From a bacterium (lineage in GTDB: Bacteria > Patescibacteriota > Minisyncoccia > Moranbacterales > UBA2206): 33,961 nt of DNA. The notes under the pieces are model-generated. The model searched no databases. It was not told the DNA's origin and was given only the letters and a program-made list of their open reading frames with translations. The translations under genes were made by a program, and so were the position numbers. The stretch spans positions 1 to 33,961 of the forward strand of contig JAJYDG010000009.1 of NCBI GenBank assembly GCA_021777675.1, in the 5' to 3' direction. Of the stretch, positions 21,228 to 33,756 are shown piece by piece. Numbering within the stretch: the first letter of the stretch is position 1; each line of letters opens with the position of its first letter.

Positions 21228-23720
21228 ATGAATAAAAAAAATGGTTTGGAAAACAATAATATGGCTGTCGTAAAGGAAGTGAGTCTGGTTAAAGAATCTT
21301 TGAATCAAGGAGGAGACAAGAATAATCGGCTCAAGGCATTTTTATCTTTAGAACCTGACGAAAAAATGGATAAAATAATTGCAGATATTGGCGAGCAGTT
21401 AAAAAATAATCCAGAAATTGCCGATCTTCTATTTTCCGAATATGCTAAGATGGCTGACGATGCGGAAAAAATAGTGAATGAGATTGAAAAAATATATGCG
21501 GAAATATTTTCTGATAAAAAAGTAAATAAAAATGAATTAACGCAGACAATTTTAAAGAGAGCCAGCAGCTTGTTTATTGATGTACAGAGAGAACTGAAAA
21601 CATCTGCAGAACAAGCTCCTGATGAGACTATAAGAAAAATAGTAGAAAAAATAAAAAATAATCAAGAGCTGCAGAAAAAGCAACTTTATGAGCTAGTAAC
21701 TGTTTGTAATAATTTAAAAAAATTAAAGAATAGTTTGGTGGAAAGTATGTTTTTGGAGGGAGATTATTATAGTATTTATTCTCAACTCTATGGAAATCCG
21801 GATGATTATAAATCTGCCAAAGAACTTAATATGGCGATTGCAAACGGCAAAATAGAGAAATGGTGGATGGATAAAGAAATAAAAAAAAGACCAGAAAAAA
21901 TATTAGATAGATTGGACGATAGAATTCTCAAAACGCTTATTGCAATTTCAGAAAAAGCTTCCTGGGATATAGAAGATATGTTAATTAAGGAAGGTTTTTA
22001 TGAGGCGATAGAAGAAGCTAAAAAAAGAAAGGAAAATATTGATTCTATAGATTTTGCAACATTTAGGAGATATAAAAATATATTGATTTCCGAAAGTGAA
22101 AAAAGAGAAAAGTTGAAAAAACTTAGGCGCTATCAGCAAATTTTTGAAAAAAAGTTTGAAAGTCTTGTTTATGGTCATGAATCAGCTAGTCTTCCAGAAA
22201 ACTATCAAAAATGTTTAGCGGTTGATATTGAAAATTATCAAGCGGAGCTACCCAGAAAAGAAGATGGATCATATCTTCCCGTTGGCATTAGCAGTATGCC
22301 ACCAAGTGAAAATGAAATTCATCAAAAACCGATTGATGCGCTACTTTGGCTTTTGTGGCTCAATAACCAGGGACAGCAAACAGAGCTGTTAGTGGCAGAC
22401 ACAATTCAAAGGCATAATTACGCAGTATTGCCTGAAAAGCAAAGACCAGCCGATCCAAAATCAGCGGCAGTGAAAAATGGACAGAAAGATCGCCAGTGGT
22501 ATCTTGCGGTTAAGAAAGTCTTAGGGTTGGAAAATATCGTTATGTCAGAAAATACTAAATTTTCTCGCTATGAAGAAAAAGTGGAAAAAAATCCTGAAGT
22601 GCAAAGATGGCTGGGGATAATTTCAGAATTGGAAAAAATCAGTCCGGCAATGGCGCGGGCAATTGGCAATTTGGTTGAGCCGACGATTCGAGAACGAGTC
22701 TTTCATGGATTGAATACGAAAGAGGAAGAATGGCAGGCCTCACGCTCAATCGATATGTATGGGAAAGAAGAGCTGGCTTTTATTTTGGCTATTCCTGAGC
22801 AAAAAATTGGACACAAAAAAGAAATACGCTATGACATGTTGGCGCGGATAATTCCGGTTTATGAGGAGTTAAGAAAGAGAGCGGGTAGCATACCGGAATT
22901 AAGTGATGATATTGAAAACATTAGAAATCGAGATCAAGTTTTAATGGAACTTAGTCTTTGGCTTGCTTATTTTAATAATTTTTCTGAGAGTTATTTTTCA
23001 AAGGCAAAGCTAAATTTGTTTGAAAAACGATTGCAAGAATTAAAAAAGCAAGGCAGTCAAATGGAAAATGGACAAGGAGACAAAAAGGCAGTCGGAATCG
23101 TTCAGCAGAATATCCGAGGGATTTCTGTTGAAGCTAAAAAATTAAGAGGAGTGATGAAACAATTCCAAAACAATATAAAAGAAAATGATCGGATCGAGAT
23201 GGTTGAAAATGCAGTAAAAAGATTGGGAATTTCGGAAAATCCCAAGGGGGTAGCAATTAAATGGCGAGAAATTGGAGGGCGATTGTCGCAAGAAGAGTGG
23301 TTTAAAAAACTTGACTTGCCAAAATTCTATTACCCTAAAGGGATTAGCAGTTTGAGCTTCGACATAAATGGCGATGGAGAATTTATGAATTTCAGAGAGC
23401 CATACAGTACTTATAAAGGAGAAAATGAAGAAGAATTGGCAATTGAATCCAATCAGATAATTGCGTCAACCAATCTTTTGGCAGCTGCAAAGATTATGGT
23501 GCTAAGTGAAAAAGGTCAGAAAACATATTTCGAAAAAGTTTTGCGACCTCTAGTCGTCAATTACTATGTGGCTACAAGTAAATCCAAAGAGGAGGCAATG
23601 ACGAGATTTCGAGAAAATTTCGAAGGAGTAACAACTATCGCCGAAGTGATCGAACTTATTCAGCAGAAGATTATTTGGCCTTTGGAGATGGAACTTAAAA
23701 GCGTGAAGATTCGGCAGTGA
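21228..23720 (+). CDS. Large hypothetical protein (830 aa)
   Basis: Single long ORF, helical and charged; no recognised domain. Confidence 0.7.
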   Translation: MNKKNGLENNNMAVVKEVSLVKESLNQGGDKNNRLKAFLSLEPDEKMDKIIADIGEQLKNNPEIADLLFSEYAKMADDAEKIVNEIEKIYAEIFSDKKVNKNELTQTILKRASSLFIDVQRELKTSAEQAPDETIRKIVEKIKNNQELQKKQLYELVTVCNNLKKLKNSLVESMFLEGDYYSIYSQLYGNPDDYKSAKELNMAIANGKIEKWWMDKEIKKRPEKILDRLDDRILKTLIAISEKASWDIEDMLIKEGFYEAIEEAKKRKENIDSIDFATFRRYKNILISESEKREKLKKLRRYQQIFEKKFESLVYGHESASLPENYQKCLAVDIENYQAELPRKEDGSYLPVGISSMPPSENEIHQKPIDALLWLLWLNNQGQQTELLVADTIQRHNYAVLPEKQRPADPKSAAVKNGQKDRQWYLAVKKVLGLENIVMSENTKFSRYEEKVEKNPEVQRWLGIISELEKISPAMARAIGNLVEPTIRERVFHGLNTKEEEWQASRSIDMYGKEELAFILAIPEQKIGHKKEIRYDMLARIIPVYEELRKRAGSIPELSDDIENIRNRDQVLMELSLWLAYFNNFSESYFSKAKLNLFEKRLQELKKQGSQMENGQGDKKAVGIVQQNIRGISVEAKKLRGVMKQFQNNIKENDRIEMVENAVKRLGISENPKGVAIKWREIGGRLSQEEWFKKLDLPKFYYPKGISSLSFDINGDGEFMNFREPYSTYKGENEEELAIESNQIIASTNLLAAAKIMVLSEKGQKTYFEKVLRPLVVNYYVATSKSKEEAMTRFRENFEGVTTIAEVIELIQQKIIWPLEMELKSVKIRQ

Positions 23721-24483
23721 TGATATTTTTGAGCGGAATGGAACTTTTCCAATTCATTTCAAAAATTGATTTTTGTGTTTGGTAGATTTCCTCATTTTCA
23801 ACTATCATTCCGACAAGTTTCTTTTCGGAGAAAGTCATAAAGGAAATTTTTCCGTCATAAATTTCCATTTCCAAAAATAGCGGATATTTTTTCCCGTCAA
23901 TAAAGCGTATTTCTGTTACGCTTTGGTCGTAATTTTCCAAGTATTTTCTGGCATAAGGAGTGTCGGCTACAATTCCCCTTTTCTTGATTCCGAGTTTTTT
24001 TCTTTCCTTGACATAGCGATCATTGTCTTTGGATAAATATTTTTCCATTCCTTCGATTTGAGCGTAGGTGAGAATTTCTGTTCGCGATTGGAGTGAATCA
24101 TTGAGAACCTTGACCAAACCTTCTTTTCCTTCAAAAATTTGCACGCCCGGTCGGCTGGAAACCAGATTGAAATCGGAAATGATTTTTGGCAAATTGGCTT
24201 CTAGCGTTTTTTCCGATTCACGGATTTTTTGTTCCTTGTTTTCAATGAAATCCCAAAGTTTTTGCGGATGGTTTGGGATGAAAGTGGTAACCTTTTCGGT
24301 ATTTTTTTTCTTGATCAATTCTTTTTTTACCAGTCCGTTTAGCGCGTTATAAACAACTCCGCGCTTTAAGGGTGTTTTTTTGATAATTATTCCGGCGGAA
24401 GATTCCCCATTGCTTAATAAAAAATCATATACCAACGCTTCATTGATGGATAAGCCCAATTGGGTGAATATATTTTTGTCCAT
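23695..24483 (-). CDS. TrmB-family transcriptional regulator
   Basis: 'LGLSINEALVYDFLLSNGESSAGIIIKKTPLKRGVVYNALNGLVKKELI' winged-HTH plus coiled coil. Confidence 0.8.
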   Translation of the reverse strand: MDKNIFTQLGLSINEALVYDFLLSNGESSAGIIIKKTPLKRGVVYNALNGLVKKELIKKKNTEKVTTFIPNHPQKLWDFIENKEQKIRESEKTLEANLPKIISDFNLVSSRPGVQIFEGKEGLVKVLNDSLQSRTEILTYAQIEGMEKYLSKDNDRYVKERKKLGIKKRGIVADTPYARKYLENYDQSVTEIRFIDGKKYPLFLEMEIYDGKISFMTFSEKKLVGMIVENEEIYQTQKSIFEMNWKSSIPLKNIITAESSRF

Positions 24484-24488
24484 AGGGT

Positions 24489-25283
24489 TTATTTTTTATT
24501 GATTATTTGTTGGTAATATTTTTCGTGGATTGGAGTGGAAAGCTCCCAAATGAAGTTGAAAATAACGCGAAAGGACAGATTGATTGAGTCGTTTTCGATA
24601 ATAGTTGTAATAATATTTTTATCCAAAGAAGTGATAGCAACTTTATTTTTAAAAACAATAATCTGGGCGGGTAGAGAAAATCTTTCTTTGGGGACAATCC
24701 TTCTTTCTACCAAATTTTTTATATCTTTGGCGATAACAGAAAAGGGAGTGTCCAAAACCAACGGAGTGATAGCTTTAGTGTGAATATTGCGCTTTATTTG
24801 TTTTGCGATCTGATTTTTGACTAACTTGTCTATTTTTGGCGAGTCGTTATCCGAGATTGATCGAAAAAGCAATATATCTTCCCCGGCTTTGATTATTTCT
24901 GCGTAAACATATTCTAGCCCTTCAAAACCTTCAAGGCAGGCAATTCCCGGTTGTCCAGAAATAAGATTGAAGTTAGAGAGAATGGCAGAAAACTGATTTT
25001 CCAGAGTGCCTTTAGCTTTTTTAAGCCTATTTTTTTCATCTTCAACCAGTCCCGCCAGCTTTGCTGGGTGTTTTGGGCTAAAATAAGCCATTCTTTCCTT
25101 TTTTATTATGGACACCATTTCTTTTCCGATCAAATTTTTTAAATCTCCATAGACGGTACCTCTTTTTAGATGAGTACCGGAGATGATTTTTCCAGCCGAA
25201 ACTCGTCCGCTTTTAATTAGATATTCGTAGATTGTGGCTTCACTGGGTGATAATCCCAAAGAGACGAAAATGTCTTTGTACAT
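24489..25283 (-). CDS. TrmB-family transcriptional regulator, tandem paralog
   Basis: 'LGLSPSEATIYEYLIKSGRVSAGKIISGTHLKRGTVYGDLKNLIGKEMV'; start placed at 25283 (MYKDIFVSLG). Confidence 0.8.
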   Translation of the reverse strand: MYKDIFVSLGLSPSEATIYEYLIKSGRVSAGKIISGTHLKRGTVYGDLKNLIGKEMVSIIKKERMAYFSPKHPAKLAGLVEDEKNRLKKAKGTLENQFSAILSNFNLISGQPGIACLEGFEGLEYVYAEIIKAGEDILLFRSISDNDSPKIDKLVKNQIAKQIKRNIHTKAITPLVLDTPFSVIAKDIKNLVERRIVPKERFSLPAQIIVFKNKVAITSLDKNIITTIIENDSINLSFRVIFNFIWELSTPIHEKYYQQIINKK

Positions 25284-25483: not shown

Positions 25484-25512
25484 TTGACAAATTATTTAAT
25501 AGGTGCTACAAT
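25484..25512 (+). promoter_or_regulatory. Strong sigma-70 promoter
   Basis: TTGACA (25484-25489), 17-bp spacer, TACAAT (25507-25512). Confidence 0.75.
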
Positions 25513-25518
25513 ACGCAG

Positions 25519-25956
25519 TCAAGATAAATCGACAACGAATCGATAAGTCTCCGACAAGTAATTTTAAAATCTAGAACAGTTATCGCGTTAAGGTGATTGG
25601 CAAACCTTTTTGATCCCGACATGGTAGTTGGAATCGATTGAAAAGCTCGCCAGTCAAACCAGCCTTGGCAAGATACGCGTGTCTAGTAACCCTACAATAC
25701 AAATCTTATCCATCGTGATGAGTGGCACAGGCTTAATCCAAAAAGATAGTAAGCTTGTCCAGTCCTTATGATCAGTCCCAAATATTTATTTTATACAAAA
25801 CGGACTTAACGAGAATAGTGACTAGGGAAATTTGAAAATAATTTCCCCTCAATTCAAATCATTATAAAAGATAGTGATTTGATAGAGGATAGTTCTTTAA
25901 ATTATTACAAAGAAGAATCTATCGCATCAAATGGATTTCTATTTTGAGAAAGTTAT
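25519..25956 (+). ncRNA. Candidate structured noncoding RNA / long 5' leader
   Basis: No long ORF after the strong promoter. Hairpins: atcga/tcgat; gatcccgac-atggta-gttggaatc; gggaaatt/aatttccc; cgcatcaaat/atttgatgcg. Confidence 0.4.
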
Positions 25957-25959
25957 TTG

Positions 25960-26193
25960 ATGCGATGGATTGCATTTTTTCTGGGCAGTCCCCAGCGCCT
26001 GCTGGGGACTGTGGTGGCTGGGCTCGTCATTGCTAGCCTGATTGATGTGAAGCTTCCCAGCTTCATTTTCAACCAGGCGATGCAAGCGTTCGGGCCAATC
26101 GTCGGGCCACTCCTTCAGATTGGCATCGTATTCTTCGGAATACGTGTCATTTTGTTTGGATGGCCCGGCGGCAATCGCCGAAACAGGAACTAG
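25960..26193 (+). CDS. Small two-TM membrane protein
   Basis: ORF of 77-78 aa, GC-rich relative to flanks, two hydrophobic helices; ATG 25960 or TTG 25957. Confidence 0.5.
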   Translation: MRWIAFFLGSPQRLLGTVVAGLVIASLIDVKLPSFIFNQAMQAFGPIVGPLLQIGIVFFGIRVILFGWPGGNRRNRN

Positions 26194-26480: not shown

Positions 26481-26580
26481 TTTCAGATCTAAGTAACTGT
26501 CTAAATTCTTTTCTTTGATGTATACTTCTTTGTAGAGCCTTGTTTTTGTAGAGCCTTGTTAAAACAAAAAAACAAAAACT

Positions 26581-26916
26581 ATGCAAAGAAAAATATATCC
26601 AAGCGATGTCACTCGCGAACAATTTGAAAAAATTAGTCCCTTGCTTGCATCAGCACGCAAGACAACTAAGCCAAGGAAGATTGACCAATATGATATATTC
26701 TGTGCCTTGCTGTATCTTTTAAAATCAGGCTGTCAGTGGAGAATGTTACCTAGCGATTTTCCTCAATGGAAATTGGTCCACTACTATTTCACTGTATGGA
26801 GCAGCAGGAAAACCAAAAACACCCCCAGCGTATTGGAGGAGGTCTTAAAAAAAATTGGTCAGCGACGAACGTTTGAAAAATGGGAGAAAATGCAACACGA
26901 GCATGGGTATCGTTGA
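26581..26916 (+). CDS. IS5-family transposase OrfA
   Basis: 'YDIFCALLYLLKSGCQWRMLPSDFPQWKLVHYYF'. Confidence 0.85.
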   Translation: MQRKIYPSDVTREQFEKISPLLASARKTTKPRKIDQYDIFCALLYLLKSGCQWRMLPSDFPQWKLVHYYFTVWSSRKTKNTPSVLEEVLKKIGQRRTFEKWEKMQHEHGYR

Positions 26917-27376
26917 TGCCCAAAGTGTGAAAAATACCGAATCCGCCAAACAGAAAGGCTATGACGCAGGTAAAAAAGTTTCCGGTATTAAGCGGCATAT
27001 TGTCGTGGATACTAATGGATTACCACACGCATTAAGTGTCACGACTGCTGATGTGACTGACAGAGATGGAGCCGTTCAAGCATTTGAGACAAACAAAAAA
27101 CACCTTTCACGGGTGAAAAAAATATTGGCGGACGGCGGTTATACGGGCAAACCCTTTGCGGAAAAAGTGAAAAAGATTTTAAAAGCTGAAACAGAAATCG
27201 CCAAAAGAAACGAGCTGCATACATTTGCAGTTATACCGAAAAGGTGGGTAGTGGAAAGAAGCTTTTCATGGCTGGAAAAATGCCGAAGATTATGGAAAAA
27301 TTGTGAAAGAAAATTGAATTCAAGTTTGCAAATGATGATTTTATGTTTTGTGAGAGTGTTATTAAAAAGAATTTAG
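26855..27376 (+). CDS. IS5-family transposase OrfB (expressed by frameshift/slippage)
   Basis: 'GIVDAQSVKNTESAKQKGYDAGKKVSGIKRHIVVDTNGLPHALSVTTADVTDRDGA', 'WVVERSFSWLEKCRRL'. Confidence 0.88.
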   Translation: MVSDERLKNGRKCNTSMGIVDAQSVKNTESAKQKGYDAGKKVSGIKRHIVVDTNGLPHALSVTTADVTDRDGAVQAFETNKKHLSRVKKILADGGYTGKPFAEKVKKILKAETEIAKRNELHTFAVIPKRWVVERSFSWLEKCRRLWKNCERKLNSSLQMMILCFVRVLLKRI

Positions 27377-27391
27377 ACAGTTACTAAATTA

Positions 27392-27457: not shown

Positions 27458-28084
27458 ATGAACAAGCAAGTAGCTAATGAATTTTTAAAAAAGGCAGGAG
27501 AATATGACCCGCTAGGGGAGACGGAAGAAAGAGCGTTACAAAAAAAGTTTTTTCAAGGAGACAAGGAGGCTTTAGAAAAATTATTCAACGCCAATCTAAG
27601 ATTAGTGCTTTCCGGAGCTAAGAATGCCACGAAAATCTTAGGAGGGGAAAGTATGGAGAATTATTTGGAAAAAGGAGCAGAAGCTTTAAGAAAAGCTATC
27701 AGTACTTTTGGGGAAAATAAAATGCGACCAAGCGACTGGTATGTCTTTTGGATCAATCGTGAAATGGCTAGGGTTTTTGTTGATGAAGTGTTTGCGGTGC
27801 TTAGCAATCAAATCGGCCAAGCAAGACAAAAGGAAAATTGGGATGAATATTCCTTGCACTTTTTTAATCGCAGTCTGATGATTCAATTATTTTCTGAATT
27901 ACTGGTTAGTCCGAAAAATGAGATACTGGAAAGAATGATTGAGTCGGCGCTTTTGGAAACATTCAGTTTTCAAAAAAACTATCCGGAGCGAAAAATTTCT
28001 CCAGAGAATTTTGCAAAAAAATCAATACTCTTTCAAAAAATTATTTCCAAAGCTGATCGGGAAATGGAGGATTTGTTAAGATAA
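27458..28084 (+). CDS. Divergent sigma-70 region 2-like protein
   Basis: 'DPLGETEERALQKKFFQGDKEALEKLFNANLRLVLSGAKN...ENYLEKGAEALRKAISTFGENKMRPSDWYVFWINREMARVF' follows the sigma-70 region 1.2/2 pattern. Confidence 0.55.
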   Translation: MNKQVANEFLKKAGEYDPLGETEERALQKKFFQGDKEALEKLFNANLRLVLSGAKNATKILGGESMENYLEKGAEALRKAISTFGENKMRPSDWYVFWINREMARVFVDEVFAVLSNQIGQARQKENWDEYSLHFFNRSLMIQLFSELLVSPKNEILERMIESALLETFSFQKNYPERKISPENFAKKSILFQKIISKADREMEDLLR

Positions 28085-28286: not shown

Positions 28287-28336
28287 CAACTTTAACCAAA
28301 AATCCGGTATGCTCATGGCCGGGAATGGAGGAAAAA

Positions 28337-28834
28337 ATGAGCTGGAAATTAAAAAGCGGAGAGGTTGTGGTGGATCGCCACAACAGCCATCTCCACGAAG
28401 GCGTAGCGCATCTCCTGCCCGACGCGTTCACCCGGATTGAAAGTTTGGGCGGGGAGTTTTTCGTCGAGGAAGTCGACTTCGGTCGGCCGATCGGCGAGAC
28501 CACTTGTGTTGCTACGGCCGCTGGCGACCAAGTAATTTACGCGAAGCGGCCACGACGCTGGGGACATTCTCGGTTTGTGAGAAATCGCAAGCCGGAACTG
28601 TGCTCCAGCCTCGTTGTTATCCTCAAGGCGGGGGATGATGGCGAGTATGTGTTAATTACCGCCTTTGTGGGACACCGGCCGCAGCCGGAGCCATGGGATC
28701 GAAAAAACTTTTCGCAGCAGCCGAATCCGCGTGAAGCGGAGCGGTTGGCGCGGGAGTTCTGGTCCTCGCATGCCCTGGTTTGGGGTAGCGAGGAGACGAT
28801 TCCGGGGACCGAGATGGCTCGGTGCCCTTGGTAA
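28337..28834 (+). CDS. Hypothetical protein, possible BECR-fold RNase-like
   Basis: SD 'tggagg' before ATG 28337. 'RHNSHLHEGVAHLLPDAF...WGHSRFVRNRKPELCSSLVVILKAGDDGEYVLITAFVGHRPQPEPWD' resembles the conserved pattern of Barnase/EndoU/ColicinE5/RelE-like nucleases. Fold call is tentative. Confidence 0.55.
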   Translation: MSWKLKSGEVVVDRHNSHLHEGVAHLLPDAFTRIESLGGEFFVEEVDFGRPIGETTCVATAAGDQVIYAKRPRRWGHSRFVRNRKPELCSSLVVILKAGDDGEYVLITAFVGHRPQPEPWDRKNFSQQPNPREAERLAREFWSSHALVWGSEETIPGTEMARCPW

Positions 28835-28939
28835 AACTGGCTCCCTGAGAGCCACCCCTGCCGATGGAATTCGGTGAGCGTCACCTGCTCTGGCGTGGTC
28901 TATTCAGTTAGACCAAATGCGTCAAAAGTGGTGAGCCGT

Positions 28940-28965
28940 TCCGCCTTCGCTAAAGCTATGGCGGA
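28940..28965. repeat. REP-like palindrome
   Basis: tccgccttcgctaaagctatggcgga: nested stems tccgcc/ggcgga and gct/agc. Confidence 0.45.
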
Positions 28966-29019
28966 CGAGGGAAGCAGAGCCCTCAAAACCCGTCGACTCG
29001 GGCCTTGTGAAAATTCATA

Positions 29020-29051
29020 GGAGGCGAGTCGGCGCCTCCTCAATTTTTTTG
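29020..29051 (+). terminator. Rho-independent terminator
   Basis: aggaggcg / cgcctcct stem then T7. Confidence 0.75.
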
Positions 29052-29146
29052 GCGATTCGCGGCCAATAAAACTGCGAGCTCCGCCAGGCGACGTTAACCC
29101 TTTAATGAAGGTTAATGACGGCGCTCAAAGAGAAAAAGGAGGAATC

Positions 29147-30223
29147 ATGAACTGGTTCGCAAAAATTACGGCCATCCTCACGGCCGGGTTCGTATTTGTT
29201 GAGGAAATCGCTCGCGTGCTTAGTTTAGCATTTGCGGGCAAAAAAAATGTTATCGTTTTCGGACCGGCCGGTCACGGCAAGTCCGAAATGGTTCAGTCCG
29301 TTATCAAAGAACTCAAACTCGATGATGACACTTTCTTCCAGTTCTTTGGAGAAGGCATGGACGAGTCCAGGCTTTTTGGAGGGTTAAACTTTAAAAAGCT
29401 TGAAGAGGAAAAAATTCTTGAATACTACCCTGAGAAATCGTTTTTGAATTCTAAAGTGGCGGTATTCGAGGAATTATTTGACGCTCCGGCGTCCGTCCTT
29501 TTAGCTCTTAAGGATGTCCTCACAGCAAAAGAGCTCCGCAATGGTTCGCAGCGGTTCAAAATGCGAACTGAAATAATCATTTGCCTCACCAATAAGGAAC
29601 CCGGTGAGATAAGTGAGCTTGGCCCAGCCGCGCATGCTCTGATCGAGCGCTTTCCGCTTCAGCTAAACCTGAAATGGAAAGATTACTCGGCAGGCAGCTA
29701 CCTCTCGATGTTCGAGAAAGTAGCAAGCAGGCTGGCGGGCCCAGTGCTGAATGGTTTCAAAGGTGTCTTAGCAGAAATTCTCGCTAAGGCAACTGCCGAG
29801 GGGAATTTTGTTTCCCCAAGGACAGCCGTTCATGCATTTCAGGTTTGCCAAGCATCGGCAACGATGCGCGGTGCTGATCATGTTGAAAAATGTGATCTGA
29901 CAGACCTGCGTTTCTTGCCTGGTCTTGAAGGCTTAGCAGAAACGATTCAGGCCGACCTGACCGCCGCCATGGAAAGAGCGGCCGCCGAAAAGAATCTTTC
30001 CCAGGCCGAGAGTACACTTCGCGAACTGCTGAGTGAACTCTCCCAGGCTACCTCGCCCATCAAGGCACTGCAGGTAGCCAAAAAGTTTGTGGTATTTCAG
30101 GATGAAGTTTCTTCCCTGAAGATCACAGATGGCCTGTCCGAACGCAGAAAGCGCCTGCGGGAAACCGTAGGTGAGAAAATCACCGAGGCACAATCCCGTG
30201 CCTTGGAACAAACCCGTATCTAA
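29147..30223 (+). CDS. MoxR-type AAA+ ATPase
   Basis: SD 'aaaaaggagg' before ATG 29147. Walker A 'VFGPAGHGKSEM', Walker B-like 'KVAVFEELFDAP', sensor-1 'EIIICLTNKEPGE', 'ALIERFPLQL'. Confidence 0.85.
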   Translation: MNWFAKITAILTAGFVFVEEIARVLSLAFAGKKNVIVFGPAGHGKSEMVQSVIKELKLDDDTFFQFFGEGMDESRLFGGLNFKKLEEEKILEYYPEKSFLNSKVAVFEELFDAPASVLLALKDVLTAKELRNGSQRFKMRTEIIICLTNKEPGEISELGPAAHALIERFPLQLNLKWKDYSAGSYLSMFEKVASRLAGPVLNGFKGVLAEILAKATAEGNFVSPRTAVHAFQVCQASATMRGADHVEKCDLTDLRFLPGLEGLAETIQADLTAAMERAAAEKNLSQAESTLRELLSELSQATSPIKALQVAKKFVVFQDEVSSLKITDGLSERRKRLRETVGEKITEAQSRALEQTRI

Positions 30224-30243
30224 CGCGAGAAAGGAGGGACGCC

Positions 30244-31605
30244 ATGTCCCAGTTTACTTTCAGAACCGCCCCTCCTGCCACCTACCTTAGCCCTTCGGCC
30301 GAGGAGATGCGGGAGGTGGCCGACAAGGTCGGCCTCAAGTCCTACAGCAAGGACCTAGTGGCTGATCTGTGTAATTTGGCAGCGGGTGGAAGTATAAACC
30401 CGCCGTCGAGTTATCGTCGGCTAGTACAACAAAGGGTTGAGGAGCGACTGCCCGCTCCCGATCCAAAAAATGGGTGGTCGCTCAATGGGCGATATACCCA
30501 CGACCGGCAAGCAGTGGTAACTGATGGCCTAACTAAGGCTATCAAGTACCATCAAAACGTCTGCGATTTTTTGCAGACGGCGGAACTCGAGAAGTTCCCA
30601 GGCAACTCCCCGCTCGAGCAGGCGATGAACCTGCTCAAACTCCTCGCCAAGAAAAAAGGTGGTGAGTCTGGCGGAGGTGCCGAAGGCGAACCTTTGCCAA
30701 TTTTCACCGACAACGATCAGTCGGAAAAAGTTGGCGAGGAACTCAATCAGCTGATGGACGACATAGACAGTCTATCGGATGACGAGCGCGAGCTTCTCGA
30801 CCCAAACCAGGACGCTGGTGCGGGCCAAGACAAAGGTGGAGACGACGGTCTCCAGAAAATGAAACTCGCCGAAGATATGTTGCGAGGCAAAGATCTGATG
30901 TTGAAGATCTCACGTAACTTAGACAAGCTCACTCGAATGCAAGTCCGAAGGAGCAAAAAGCAGGAGCCTGATCCTGCTGGCGAAGAAATCAGGCAAAGAC
31001 CCATCGCTCATTTGGGTGAGCTCAACAAGATTACCAAATCTAGTTGGGCTACACGCCAGGCATCGCCTTCGTACTTCATGTACCAGGCGATCACTGGCGC
31101 CCTCCCGATTCGCGAACGGGTTACCACCATAGAGAAAAAACAGTTATTGTATATTATCATTGACTGTTCTGGATCCATGGGCTCCGGCCAGCGTATTTTC
31201 AAGGCCGGAGGCATCCTCATGAACCGCTTGAAGGCGGTGATTGAGGGTGAGGCGGAGCTTTATGTCCGCCTGTTCGACACTTCGCTGAAGCAAGAGCACC
31301 ACGCCGGTACGCCGGCCGAAGCGAAGGAACTGATTCGCCACTTTACCGAGAAGAATTATAGTGGCGGGTCAACGGACATAAGTGGCTGCGCTCGGGCAGC
31401 CAAGACCCGGATTGAAGAAATCATCGCCGCGGGCGCGACTTACCGGCCTGAGCTGGTGGTCATCACCGACGGCGATGACAGAATCTCCTTGACTACGAAG
31501 GAGATGGCGGGAATAAAAATGCACTCGTTCGTGGTCGAGTGCGCCAACAAAGCCCTGACCGACTTGGCAGTCGCGACGGGCGGAGTTGGAATCAATAACC
31601 TTTAA
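30244..31605 (+). CDS. VWA-domain protein (MoxR partner)
   Basis: SD 'gaaaggaggg'. MIDAS 'IIIDCSGSMGSG', 'SGGSTDISG', 'LVVITDGDDRI'. Confidence 0.88.
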   Translation: MSQFTFRTAPPATYLSPSAEEMREVADKVGLKSYSKDLVADLCNLAAGGSINPPSSYRRLVQQRVEERLPAPDPKNGWSLNGRYTHDRQAVVTDGLTKAIKYHQNVCDFLQTAELEKFPGNSPLEQAMNLLKLLAKKKGGESGGGAEGEPLPIFTDNDQSEKVGEELNQLMDDIDSLSDDERELLDPNQDAGAGQDKGGDDGLQKMKLAEDMLRGKDLMLKISRNLDKLTRMQVRRSKKQEPDPAGEEIRQRPIAHLGELNKITKSSWATRQASPSYFMYQAITGALPIRERVTTIEKKQLLYIIIDCSGSMGSGQRIFKAGGILMNRLKAVIEGEAELYVRLFDTSLKQEHHAGTPAEAKELIRHFTEKNYSGGSTDISGCARAAKTRIEEIIAAGATYRPELVVITDGDDRISLTTKEMAGIKMHSFVVECANKALTDLAVATGGVGINNL

Positions 31606-32275: not shown

Positions 32276-32335
32276 GAGAAGTGAGTTAGGAGGTTTTCTG
32301 AATTTTTTGTAGGATTCAGAAACCTCCGCCTTCTC
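32276..32335 (+). terminator. Long hairpin ending island 2
   Basis: gagaag...ggaggttttctgaat / attcagaaacctcc...cttctc. Confidence 0.6.
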
Positions 32336-32409
32336 TTTCAGATTTAAATATTAACCGGATTCCCGATCAAGTTGGGAATGACATTAATATATTTAGGTTT
32401 GAAATGAGG
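32330..32409 (+). repeat. Boundary module copy 2
   Basis: cttctctttcagatttaa (17/18 to 26475-26492) and atttaggtttgaaatgagg (19/19 to 27392-27410). Confidence 0.85.
32355..32382. repeat. 28-bp REP-like palindrome flanked by ATTAA direct repeats
   Basis: ccggattcccgatcaagttgggaatgac; attccc/gggaat arms; ATTAA at 32350-32354 and 32383-32387. Confidence 0.55.
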
Positions 32410-32413
32410 TGGA

Positions 32414-32881
32414 ATGAAAAAAATGATTGAAGAAATCTTCGACTTGCGAAATAGTTCGCAGTTCGAAAAGTTTTTTCAAAATAATCTCGAAAGAGGAAAG
32501 GAGGTGAGATTATTGATGACTGTTAAAGCCCTCTCCGGATATTTGGCCGGAGAGACATGTCAGTTGCTTGATGGCGAAGAAAACGCCATCGAGTTTCTGG
32601 CGAATGTGTTTTTGCTTCATGGCGACGATTGGGCGCTGGATTTTTCTCAGGCCACCCCTGAGGAGGCGCTTGATTGGTCGCTTGCCAACATTGCGTGCAA
32701 GGCGATGTTGGCGGAGCAATTAGGGCGTCCAATGTTTTTTGATGGTCGGGAGTTTACCGACTATGAAAAATTTTTGGACGCAATTTCGTCATCAGACAGG
32801 CTGGTGATGGCTTGTCGGGATGACGAGAAAGGCTTCGGCGTTGAAACGGTGGCGTTTCCAACGCCGGAGCTAAAAAAATAA
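32414..32881 (+). CDS. Hypothetical protein
   Basis: 155-aa ORF immediately after boundary module copy 2. Confidence 0.55.
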   Translation: MKKMIEEIFDLRNSSQFEKFFQNNLERGKEVRLLMTVKALSGYLAGETCQLLDGEENAIEFLANVFLLHGDDWALDFSQATPEEALDWSLANIACKAMLAEQLGRPMFFDGREFTDYEKFLDAISSSDRLVMACRDDEKGFGVETVAFPTPELKK

Positions 32882-32993: not shown

Positions 32994-33416
32994 CTAAAGT
33001 AGTCCCTTGGCTATTTTCAAAAACTCTAGTGCTTTTTTCGTTAGCTTTTGACAATTTATTTTGCTAAAGTCGCCGTAATAATCGGCGGCTTCGCGCAAAT
33101 TCTTTGCTTCCAATAGCGATTCGACTAGAGAAACATTTATTTTTCCAGTTTCGCAAAATAAAGTTCTGATTGCTTCGATCAGACAAAAATGACTTTTCTC
33201 GCGGTATTCTTTGGAATATAAAAGTGCTCTAGCGCAATGAAACATGGAATAGTAGGATTGGACAATGCTCCAGCGATAGTTTTTCTCTTCCAAGTTTTTC
33301 AAAGACATCGCCAGGTCTTCTTGGGCGAGGCGCAATTCTTTCTTGGCTAATTTCGGACCAGGAGAGAATGACTTAATCTTGCCTCTTTCCAGACATTTGT
33401 TAAATTCTTGGGACAT
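32994..33416 (-). CDS. HEPN-domain protein
   Basis: 'AQEDLAMSLKNLEEKNYRWSIVQSYYSMFHCARALLYSKEYREKSHFCLIEAI' HEPN helical pattern; overlaps the MNT gene. Confidence 0.8.
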   Translation of the reverse strand: MSQEFNKCLERGKIKSFSPGPKLAKKELRLAQEDLAMSLKNLEEKNYRWSIVQSYYSMFHCARALLYSKEYREKSHFCLIEAIRTLFCETGKINVSLVESLLEAKNLREAADYYGDFSKINCQKLTKKALEFLKIAKGLL

Positions 33417-33756
33417 ATTCGTAGAGCGTTATGCCATTTTTAATTTCGTAATATAGCTCCGGTTCGTTTATTTCCATTTCCGACCACTCACTCTTAGTTT
33501 TGATGATGGCTTTGATTGGCATATCTGGTTTTGATTTGGCAATGATGGATTTTAACTCCTCTTTTTCATTACTCAGAATAAACAAATCAATATCACTGTT
33601 CCAAGTTTGATCGCCACGATTTCCTGAACCGAATAGAATTATTTTCTTAGAAAATTCCTTCAGTTTTGGCAGAAGAGGATTTAATTGTTCCAGCATAGAG
33701 GCTATTTTAAATCTCTTTACTTCGGAATTTTTAAGATTAATTTGATAGAAATTCAT
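33400..33756 (-). CDS. MNT-type nucleotidyltransferase
   Basis: 'KKIILFGSGNRGDQTWNSDIDLFIL' (GSxxRG...DxD). Confidence 0.85.
   Translation of the reverse strand: MNFYQINLKNSEVKRFKIASMLEQLNPLLPKLKEFSKKIILFGSGNRGDQTWNSDIDLFILSNEKEELKSIIAKSKPDMPIKAIIKTKSEWSEMEINEPELYYEIKNGITLYEYVPRI

Follow-up and report, generated by a model that had tools for sequence, protein, structure and literature searches.

A composite RNA leader with boxA-like sites heads a variable gene array in an uncultured patescibacterium

The locus and its composite transcript

The window, i.e., the whole stretch of 33,961 bases analyzed here, is a complete contig (G000:C14) from the 879-kb draft genome of an ultra-small uncultured bacterium. 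Within it, a promoter divergent from a gene for a TrmB-type regulator drives approximately 465 nt without an open reading frame (ORF), behind which the first possible gene of an array begins. The features are as follows:

23695-24483: second, paralogous TrmB gene, next after 24489-25283 (Pfam PF01978)
24489-25283, minus strand: divergent gene for a TrmB-type transcription factor of 264 aa (Pfam PF01978)
25484-25512, plus strand: promoter TTGACA-N17-TACAAT with an extended -10 TG (11 of 12 consensus bases)
25507-25575, plus strand: leader, comprising the -10 box, a 5′ stem-loop (25518-25555) and a boxA-like site (25558-25568) (covariance model R2, fold)
25571-25686, plus strand: long irregular helical domain (helices with pair probabilities of 0.82-1.00, same fold in the sister genome G002)
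25687-25824, plus strand: rest of the noncoding body, with a hairpin (25712-25772) and a helix (25774-25778/25802-25806) (fold)
25825-25847, plus strand: SL1, gggaaatt-N7-aatttccc, directly before SL2, as in the array spacers of relatives
25845-25912, plus strand: match to the spacer module, with SL2 at 25847-25888 and boxA at 25892-25902 (model R3)
25916-25971, plus strand: strong hairpin of 19 + 5 pairs (-29.1 kcal/mol, z = -6.2)
25960-26193, plus strand: putative first array protein, hydrophobic, 77-78 aa (ORF list)

The promoter had been picked out in a sequence-only reading of this DNA as TTGACA-17-TACAAT. Its consensus bases and extended -10 bear this out, as does the sister genome, in which the -35 box and the -10 region are retained while the promoter spacer has diverged; the site also ranks first among 10 in 3.1 kb. 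Both TrmB assignments are significant (E = 1.3e-9 and 3.3e-9), both genes are kept in G002 at 67-69% amino acid identity, and the promoter is probably controlled by the divergent regulator. The TrmB pair adjoins a gene for an 830-aa protein (21228-23720) that has no match in Pfam, NCBIfam, PHROG or PADLOC and evolves faster than its neighbors (70% identity to G002 compared to 88-95%).

No ORF with a ribosome-binding site was found between 25515 and 25957, where the longest frame spans 47 aa from a TTG start, in line with the earlier claim that this stretch holds no long ORF. Its predicted fold is far more stable than chance: 25515-25980 reached -138.3 kcal/mol compared to -90.7 ± 5.3 kcal/mol for shuffled sequences (z = -9.05), whereas 15 control stretches of the window gave z from -2.2 to +2.0. 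Folded alone, 25515-25690 gave z = -4.6 and 25691-25912, which leaves out the terminal hairpin, z = -4.9. Three hairpins named in the sequence-only reading recurred in our folds (25528-25544, 25825-25847, and 25616-25631 as the apex of a larger arm); its ttcttt/aaagaa pairing was weak (mean pair probability 0.42), and the TTCTTT is better read as a piece of a boxA-like sequence. That reading missed the hairpin at 25916-25971, the helical domain at 25571-25686 and the make-up of the region, which is a composite of a recurrent leader, a structured body and a spacer module. Its proposal of a candidate novel noncoding RNA or cis-regulatory leader holds both ways, the ends being a cis element and the middle structured and noncoding, and the covariation that it had named as a check proved strong for the spacer stem-loop and moderate for the 5′ stem.

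Searches of the window against Rfam returned nothing at gathering cut-offs and sub-threshold chance matches at permissive thresholds, and related loci yielded tRNAs only; the absence of a family match agrees with the first reading, which had recognized no known RNA class. A tmRNA reading was rejected: the tmRNA of this genome lies at G000:C34:37034-37443 (161 bits) and ARAGORN finds none in the window. A literature search on TrmB and Patescibacteria, boxA, and integrons in the Candidate Phyla Radiation, with most subscription papers outside its coverage, found no description of such a locus. The expression platform and spacer RNA class proposed below were thus not found in Rfam or in the literature searched.

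Leaders, spacers and exchanged genes in related genomes

Two further genomes of the genus (G004 and G006) have the same start sequence divergent from TrmB genes. A pattern search across the order for the -10 box followed by the first stem strand gave 35 matches in 25 of the 131 genomes, compared to two for the reversed control. Covariance model R2, built from 19 sequences with the window leader among them, scored that leader at 52.2 bits (E = 5e-6 in a 13-source search, 2.3e-5 genome-wide) and matched 10 of 384 genomes of the class, all 10 in the window's own order. By exact match, the leader pattern was absent from IMG/VR. The leaders share a layout, i.e., a TTGACA-like -35 box, TATACT, the stem strands GTTAAGAT...ATCTTAAC a few bases from the expected start, and then AGTTCTTTCAAAATCA, downstream of which a ribosome-binding site and a small ORF follow as a rule. 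The divergent gene nearly always encodes a transcription factor, mostly of the TrmB type (confirmed in 7/7 TrmB-like proteins tested beside leaders) and otherwise of the AsnC type or ORF6N. One contig, G006:C11, carries the leader at both ends, and contigs of G002, G004 and G006 (L114, L115 and L116) stop 125-210 nt beyond the leader motif; contigs would be expected to break there if the sequence following the leader were repetitive or differed between strains.

The 5′ stem covaries. Paired cells make up 85% of the alignment compared to at most 44% when the stem is slid, and none of 500 shuffles covaried as highly. Since the loop varies from about 15 to 71 nt, an RNA stem fits better than a DNA operator of fixed spacing, and a palindromic TrmB operator in its place is disfavored by the same loop lengths. 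A boxA-like site usually sits in the same place, directly after the stem. Measured against the published boxA consensus GYTCTTTAANA (PMC5725501), 26 of 33 leaders lie within two mismatches, compared to 16.6% of shuffles. The site in the window leader is degenerate (GTAATTTTAAA, three mismatches), and some leaders have no recognizable boxA (L116; L128 at 7311). A boxA matrix made from native rrn leaders separated weakly, with six of 33 array leaders above the 95% control line (P = 0.009); in the reverse scan, the top match fell on the presumed rrn boxA in four of seven leaders, none significant singly. Matrix scanning of the window was too unspecific (47 matches), and our boxA assignments rest on the published consensus together with R2 and R3.

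The second recurrent element separates genes. In relatives, spacers consist of a terminator-like SL1, at once SL2, and then AAAGUUNUUU; in the array SL2, the outer part of the stem is CUC/GAG, the AUU/AUA internal loop is conserved and the apex varies. Model R3 was built from six spacers of G075 and G077, with the window left out, and its only significant match in the window was 25845-25912 (33.3 bits, E = 5.2e-6). There, SL2 has an AAT/TA internal loop and the boxA, GTTCTTTAAAT, is one mismatch from the consensus. Over 44 loci, some of which overlap, R3 gave 26 matches with E < 0.01, each downstream of a leader and on the same strand; it did not match the next spacers of the window. Covariation of SL2 in 21 sequences reached 0.654, compared to 0.296 for shuffled and at most 0.134 for slid alignments, and 44 cells were changed on both sides compared to 9.7 ± 2.9 in shuffles. 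This alignment was fitted to the structure, and the six unfitted spacers already show covariation. The module at 25825-25902 is the same element that stands between the small genes in relatives' arrays.

The genes themselves are exchanged. Several genomes have one such site in common; their regulators there are 72-92% identical, but the first genes downstream of the leader bear no relation to one another, apart from three response-regulator-like ones (by Pfam for two). Two genomes, G075 and G079, align at 81% until just after boxA, and the alignment picks up again after 4.3 kb in G075 and 1.3 kb in G079; the small genes in between differ, and only the spacers are common inside the exchanged interval.

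A proposed role in antitermination

In rRNA operons, boxB-boxA-boxC follows the promoter and recurs upstream of 23S, and the Nus complex is recruited through boxA, which is both necessary and sufficient for this (PMC10250234). The locus shares much of this plan: a hairpin and then a boxA-like site stand close behind the promoter, a hairpin and a boxA one mismatch from the consensus follow downstream, and a structured noncoding RNA is transcribed behind them. Because the hairpin and boxA at the head and in the spacers repeat the rRNA operon plan, we propose antitermination, for which such arrays would also call because untranslated RNA and terminator-like hairpins lie between their short genes. 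We lean, with modest confidence, toward a model in which an rrn-like system of hairpin plus boxA expresses arrays of exchangeable small genes. A TrmB-regulated promoter would start a transcript with the 5′-terminal stem-loop followed by the boxA-like site; here, the structured noncoding RNA of approximately 250 nt would fill the slot of the first small gene, and the spacer module (SL1, SL2 and boxA) would then precede further genes. Following the rRNA operon precedent, NusB/S10 would attach to boxA of the growing transcript and render RNA polymerase resistant to termination; the polymerase would then pass through untranslated or sparsely translated stretches despite their terminator-like hairpins, and each spacer would renew the signal.

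There are also differences from rrn leaders. This leader drives small protein genes and a non-ribosomal RNA from a promoter divergent from TrmB-type regulators, is reiterated in many spacers, and has no boxC that we could identify. The native rrn leaders in these genomes use a different promoter and a different stem, and their hairpin sequences are unrelated. BoxA sites also occur in CRISPR arrays. Beyond rRNA operons, they are described in the suhB 5′ UTR and at a putative ParE toxin gene (PMC5725501); these, like the present case, place boxA in the 5′ leader of a non-rRNA operon, but they are single sites, whereas the boxA of the present arrays comes with a covarying stem-loop and recurs between genes. 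Systems of the LoaP/RfaH type rely on a hairpin in the leader RNA, which allows polymerase to read past terminator hairpins within long gene clusters (PMC12691694). LoaP, itself a dedicated paralog of NusG, works through a UNCG-tetraloop hairpin, whereas the present leaders show no UNCG constraint: none of the apical loops of window hairpins and folded leaders is a UNCG tetraloop. As in integron cassette arrays, small genes are exchanged behind a constant promoter and leader while the chromosomal site stays the same. In contrast to integrons, the leader stem shows no attC/attI core sites by eye, the spacers hold SL1-SL2-boxA, and no integrase or attC was seen by eye beside the arrays in the ORF lists of the window and leader loci. 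OLE, GOLLD, ROOL, HEARO and raiA are likewise long, highly structured and strongly conserved noncoding RNAs without an ORF; the window RNA differs from them in matching no Rfam model.

The same structures might instead stabilize RNA. The blunt 5′ stem would stop 5′-end-dependent decay, the spacer hairpins would stop 3′ exonucleases and part segments of differing stability, the body together with SL1 and SL2 would protect the transcript, and the boxA-like stretch would be an A/U-rich ribosome standby site or an RNase-resistant linker rather than a Nus site. It would suit this explanation that the stem starts a few bases from the expected transcription start in every leader, that its sequence is constrained while its loop is free in length and sequence, and that SL1 comes after genes, like REP-type stabilizers. 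Stabilization would, however, need neither a single-stranded CUUU-type motif that is conserved and keeps its position behind the stem nor a conserved AUU/AUA internal loop in SL2, and as the sole function we consider it unlikely. The 5′-terminal stem may also stabilize the RNA under the antitermination model, with which this is compatible.

The noncoding body and the cargo of the arrays

The body (25576-25824) occupies the slot where other arrays hold their first gene. Among the 131 genomes of the order and the sample of 384 from the class, this RNA is present in just one other genome, G002, on a MAG contig (JAJYBE010000010.1) that ends 184 nt into the transcript; it is thus known from two genomes and missing from other members of the genus. 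Over those 184 nt, 182 positions are identical between the window genome and G002, and the sole differences (GC to AA at 25585-25586) fall in an unpaired 2-nt loop. By comparison, the G002 contig matches the window at 86-87% over 25 kb and at 74% in the TrmB neighborhood adjoining the RNA, and the switch from diverged to near-identical DNA sits at the expected transcription start. Among 22,962 windows of 184 columns, that of the RNA ranks first in conservation; the best coding windows reach 180/184, so this conservation is extreme for its place but little beyond that of the best coding DNA. As the most conserved part of the locus, the body probably functions as an RNA and is less likely to be a spacer. 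The segment 25687-25824 is seen in one genome only, since the G002 contig stops at the equivalent of 25698; within it, 25690-25810 folds with z = -4.36.

Covariance model R1 of the body found no relatives in 124 genomes of the order or, with filters off, in 15 leader loci. DNA homologs of the full-length RNA were sought in plasmids and phages, in IMG/VR with one exact 20-mer and in GTDB contigs with one exact 22-mer; only JAJYBE010000010.1 was returned. Short similarities in G021 and G024 (34 nt), G197 and G226 were set aside as chance or AT-rich likeness; the 34-nt likeness is to the terminal hairpin (TATTTTGAGAAAGTT...GATGCGAT) and adjoins a PaaX/Cas2-like gene in G021 and G024 (L040 and L041). 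Orthology by synteny was likewise rejected for G003 and G004, in which recQ rather than the TrmB cluster follows the neighboring gene; G006 has recQ, a TrmB gene and then a leader whose contig ends. A possible mimic of the 16S 3′ end (anti-SD) occurs in AAATCACCTC.

A six-T run (25975-25980) starts 3 nt after the terminal hairpin, and the 3′ arm of the hairpin includes the ATG of the next ORF, for whose 77-78-aa product no relatives were found. The hairpin may be terminator-like or, given the ATG in its 3′ arm, may block translation; a terminator scan of the window did not list it. With its T-run, this strong hairpin could also end a free-standing small RNA gene, consisting of the promoter, a structured RNA of approximately 460 nt and a terminator (25916-25980), whose likeness to arrays would reflect shared promoter and spacer pieces. 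The near-complete conservation between two species in the comparable part and the lack of an ORF would fit such a gene. The 3-nt gap between stem and T-run nevertheless weakens the terminator, and SL1-SL2-boxA, which in relatives precedes further genes, stands before the hairpin. We regard a free-standing gene as improbable and prefer an antiterminated array transcript with the body in its first slot.

The near-identity to G002 may have another origin, namely recent recombination of a mobile piece or mis-assembly of a shared contig end, rather than selection on the RNA. The G002 contig (coverage 1.7x) ends within the RNA, contigs of G004 and G006 likewise end 125-210 nt past the leader motif, and the body is missing from other members of the genus, all as this explanation would have it. 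High identity nevertheless begins at the transcript start, with the promoter spacer and upstream DNA diverged, and the internal 2-nt difference sits in an unpaired loop; we consider this origin rather improbable and retain selection on a transcribed body. A riboswitch or attenuator for the 78-aa ORF, with the body binding a metabolite and the hairpin at 25916-25971 switching translation or termination, could draw on the large conserved structured domain upstream of a hairpin that overlaps the start codon, but is very improbable given that no Rfam class matches, no alternative pairing is evident, the ORF has no relatives and the body is confined to two genomes.

A second ORF-free stretch lies behind the leaders of G066 and G067 (L096 and L097), and parts of it fold better than chance; it shows no similarity to the window body. 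In G067 (L097:1560-2550, partly common to G066), this long structured region is followed by a boxA-like ATCTTTGAAAATTAAATAG. It may be a second candidate noncoding cargo, in which case noncoding first slots would not be unique to the window.

We tentatively extend the antitermination model to a proposal that could well prove too broad, i.e., that this order of Patescibacteria has a dedicated expression platform for exchangeable genes, with regulated stem-loop-boxA leaders, re-arming SL1-SL2-boxA spacers, and protein or noncoding RNA cargo. The spacer RNA and the noncoding RNA would be new parts of an rrn-like antitermination leader, and the leaders point to an undescribed RNA-guided expression of exchangeable genes. 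Patescibacteria have very small genomes and little known regulation, and the majority of their small proteins lack an assigned function. A covarying RNA at the head and at the junctions of variable small-gene arrays offers a handle to find arrays in any genome, and allows array operons and their cargo to be predicted. It also raises the question of whether rRNA-type antitermination is used for accessory genes, and flags a noncoding RNA (25576-25824) that, where comparable, is as strictly kept as the best-conserved coding DNA nearby.

Further along the window, an insertion sequence of the IS5/IS4 type (26492-27385), bounded by perfect inverted repeats of 21 bp and encoding its transposase in two frames (DUF4096 and DDE_Tnp_1), splits a spacer, another copy of which lies at 32320-32415. 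A block at 28325-31602 is G+C-rich (52-59% compared to approximately 36% around it) and encodes a phrog_23674-like protein, a MoxR-type ATPase and a probable VWA-type protein; it is probably acquired cargo. A small protein encoded at 27458-28084 shows a weak resemblance to regions of the sigma-70 family, its best NCBIfam match (E = 1e-8) falling far short of the cut-off, and two small minus-strand genes at 32994-33756 resemble a HEPN/nucleotidyltransferase pair.
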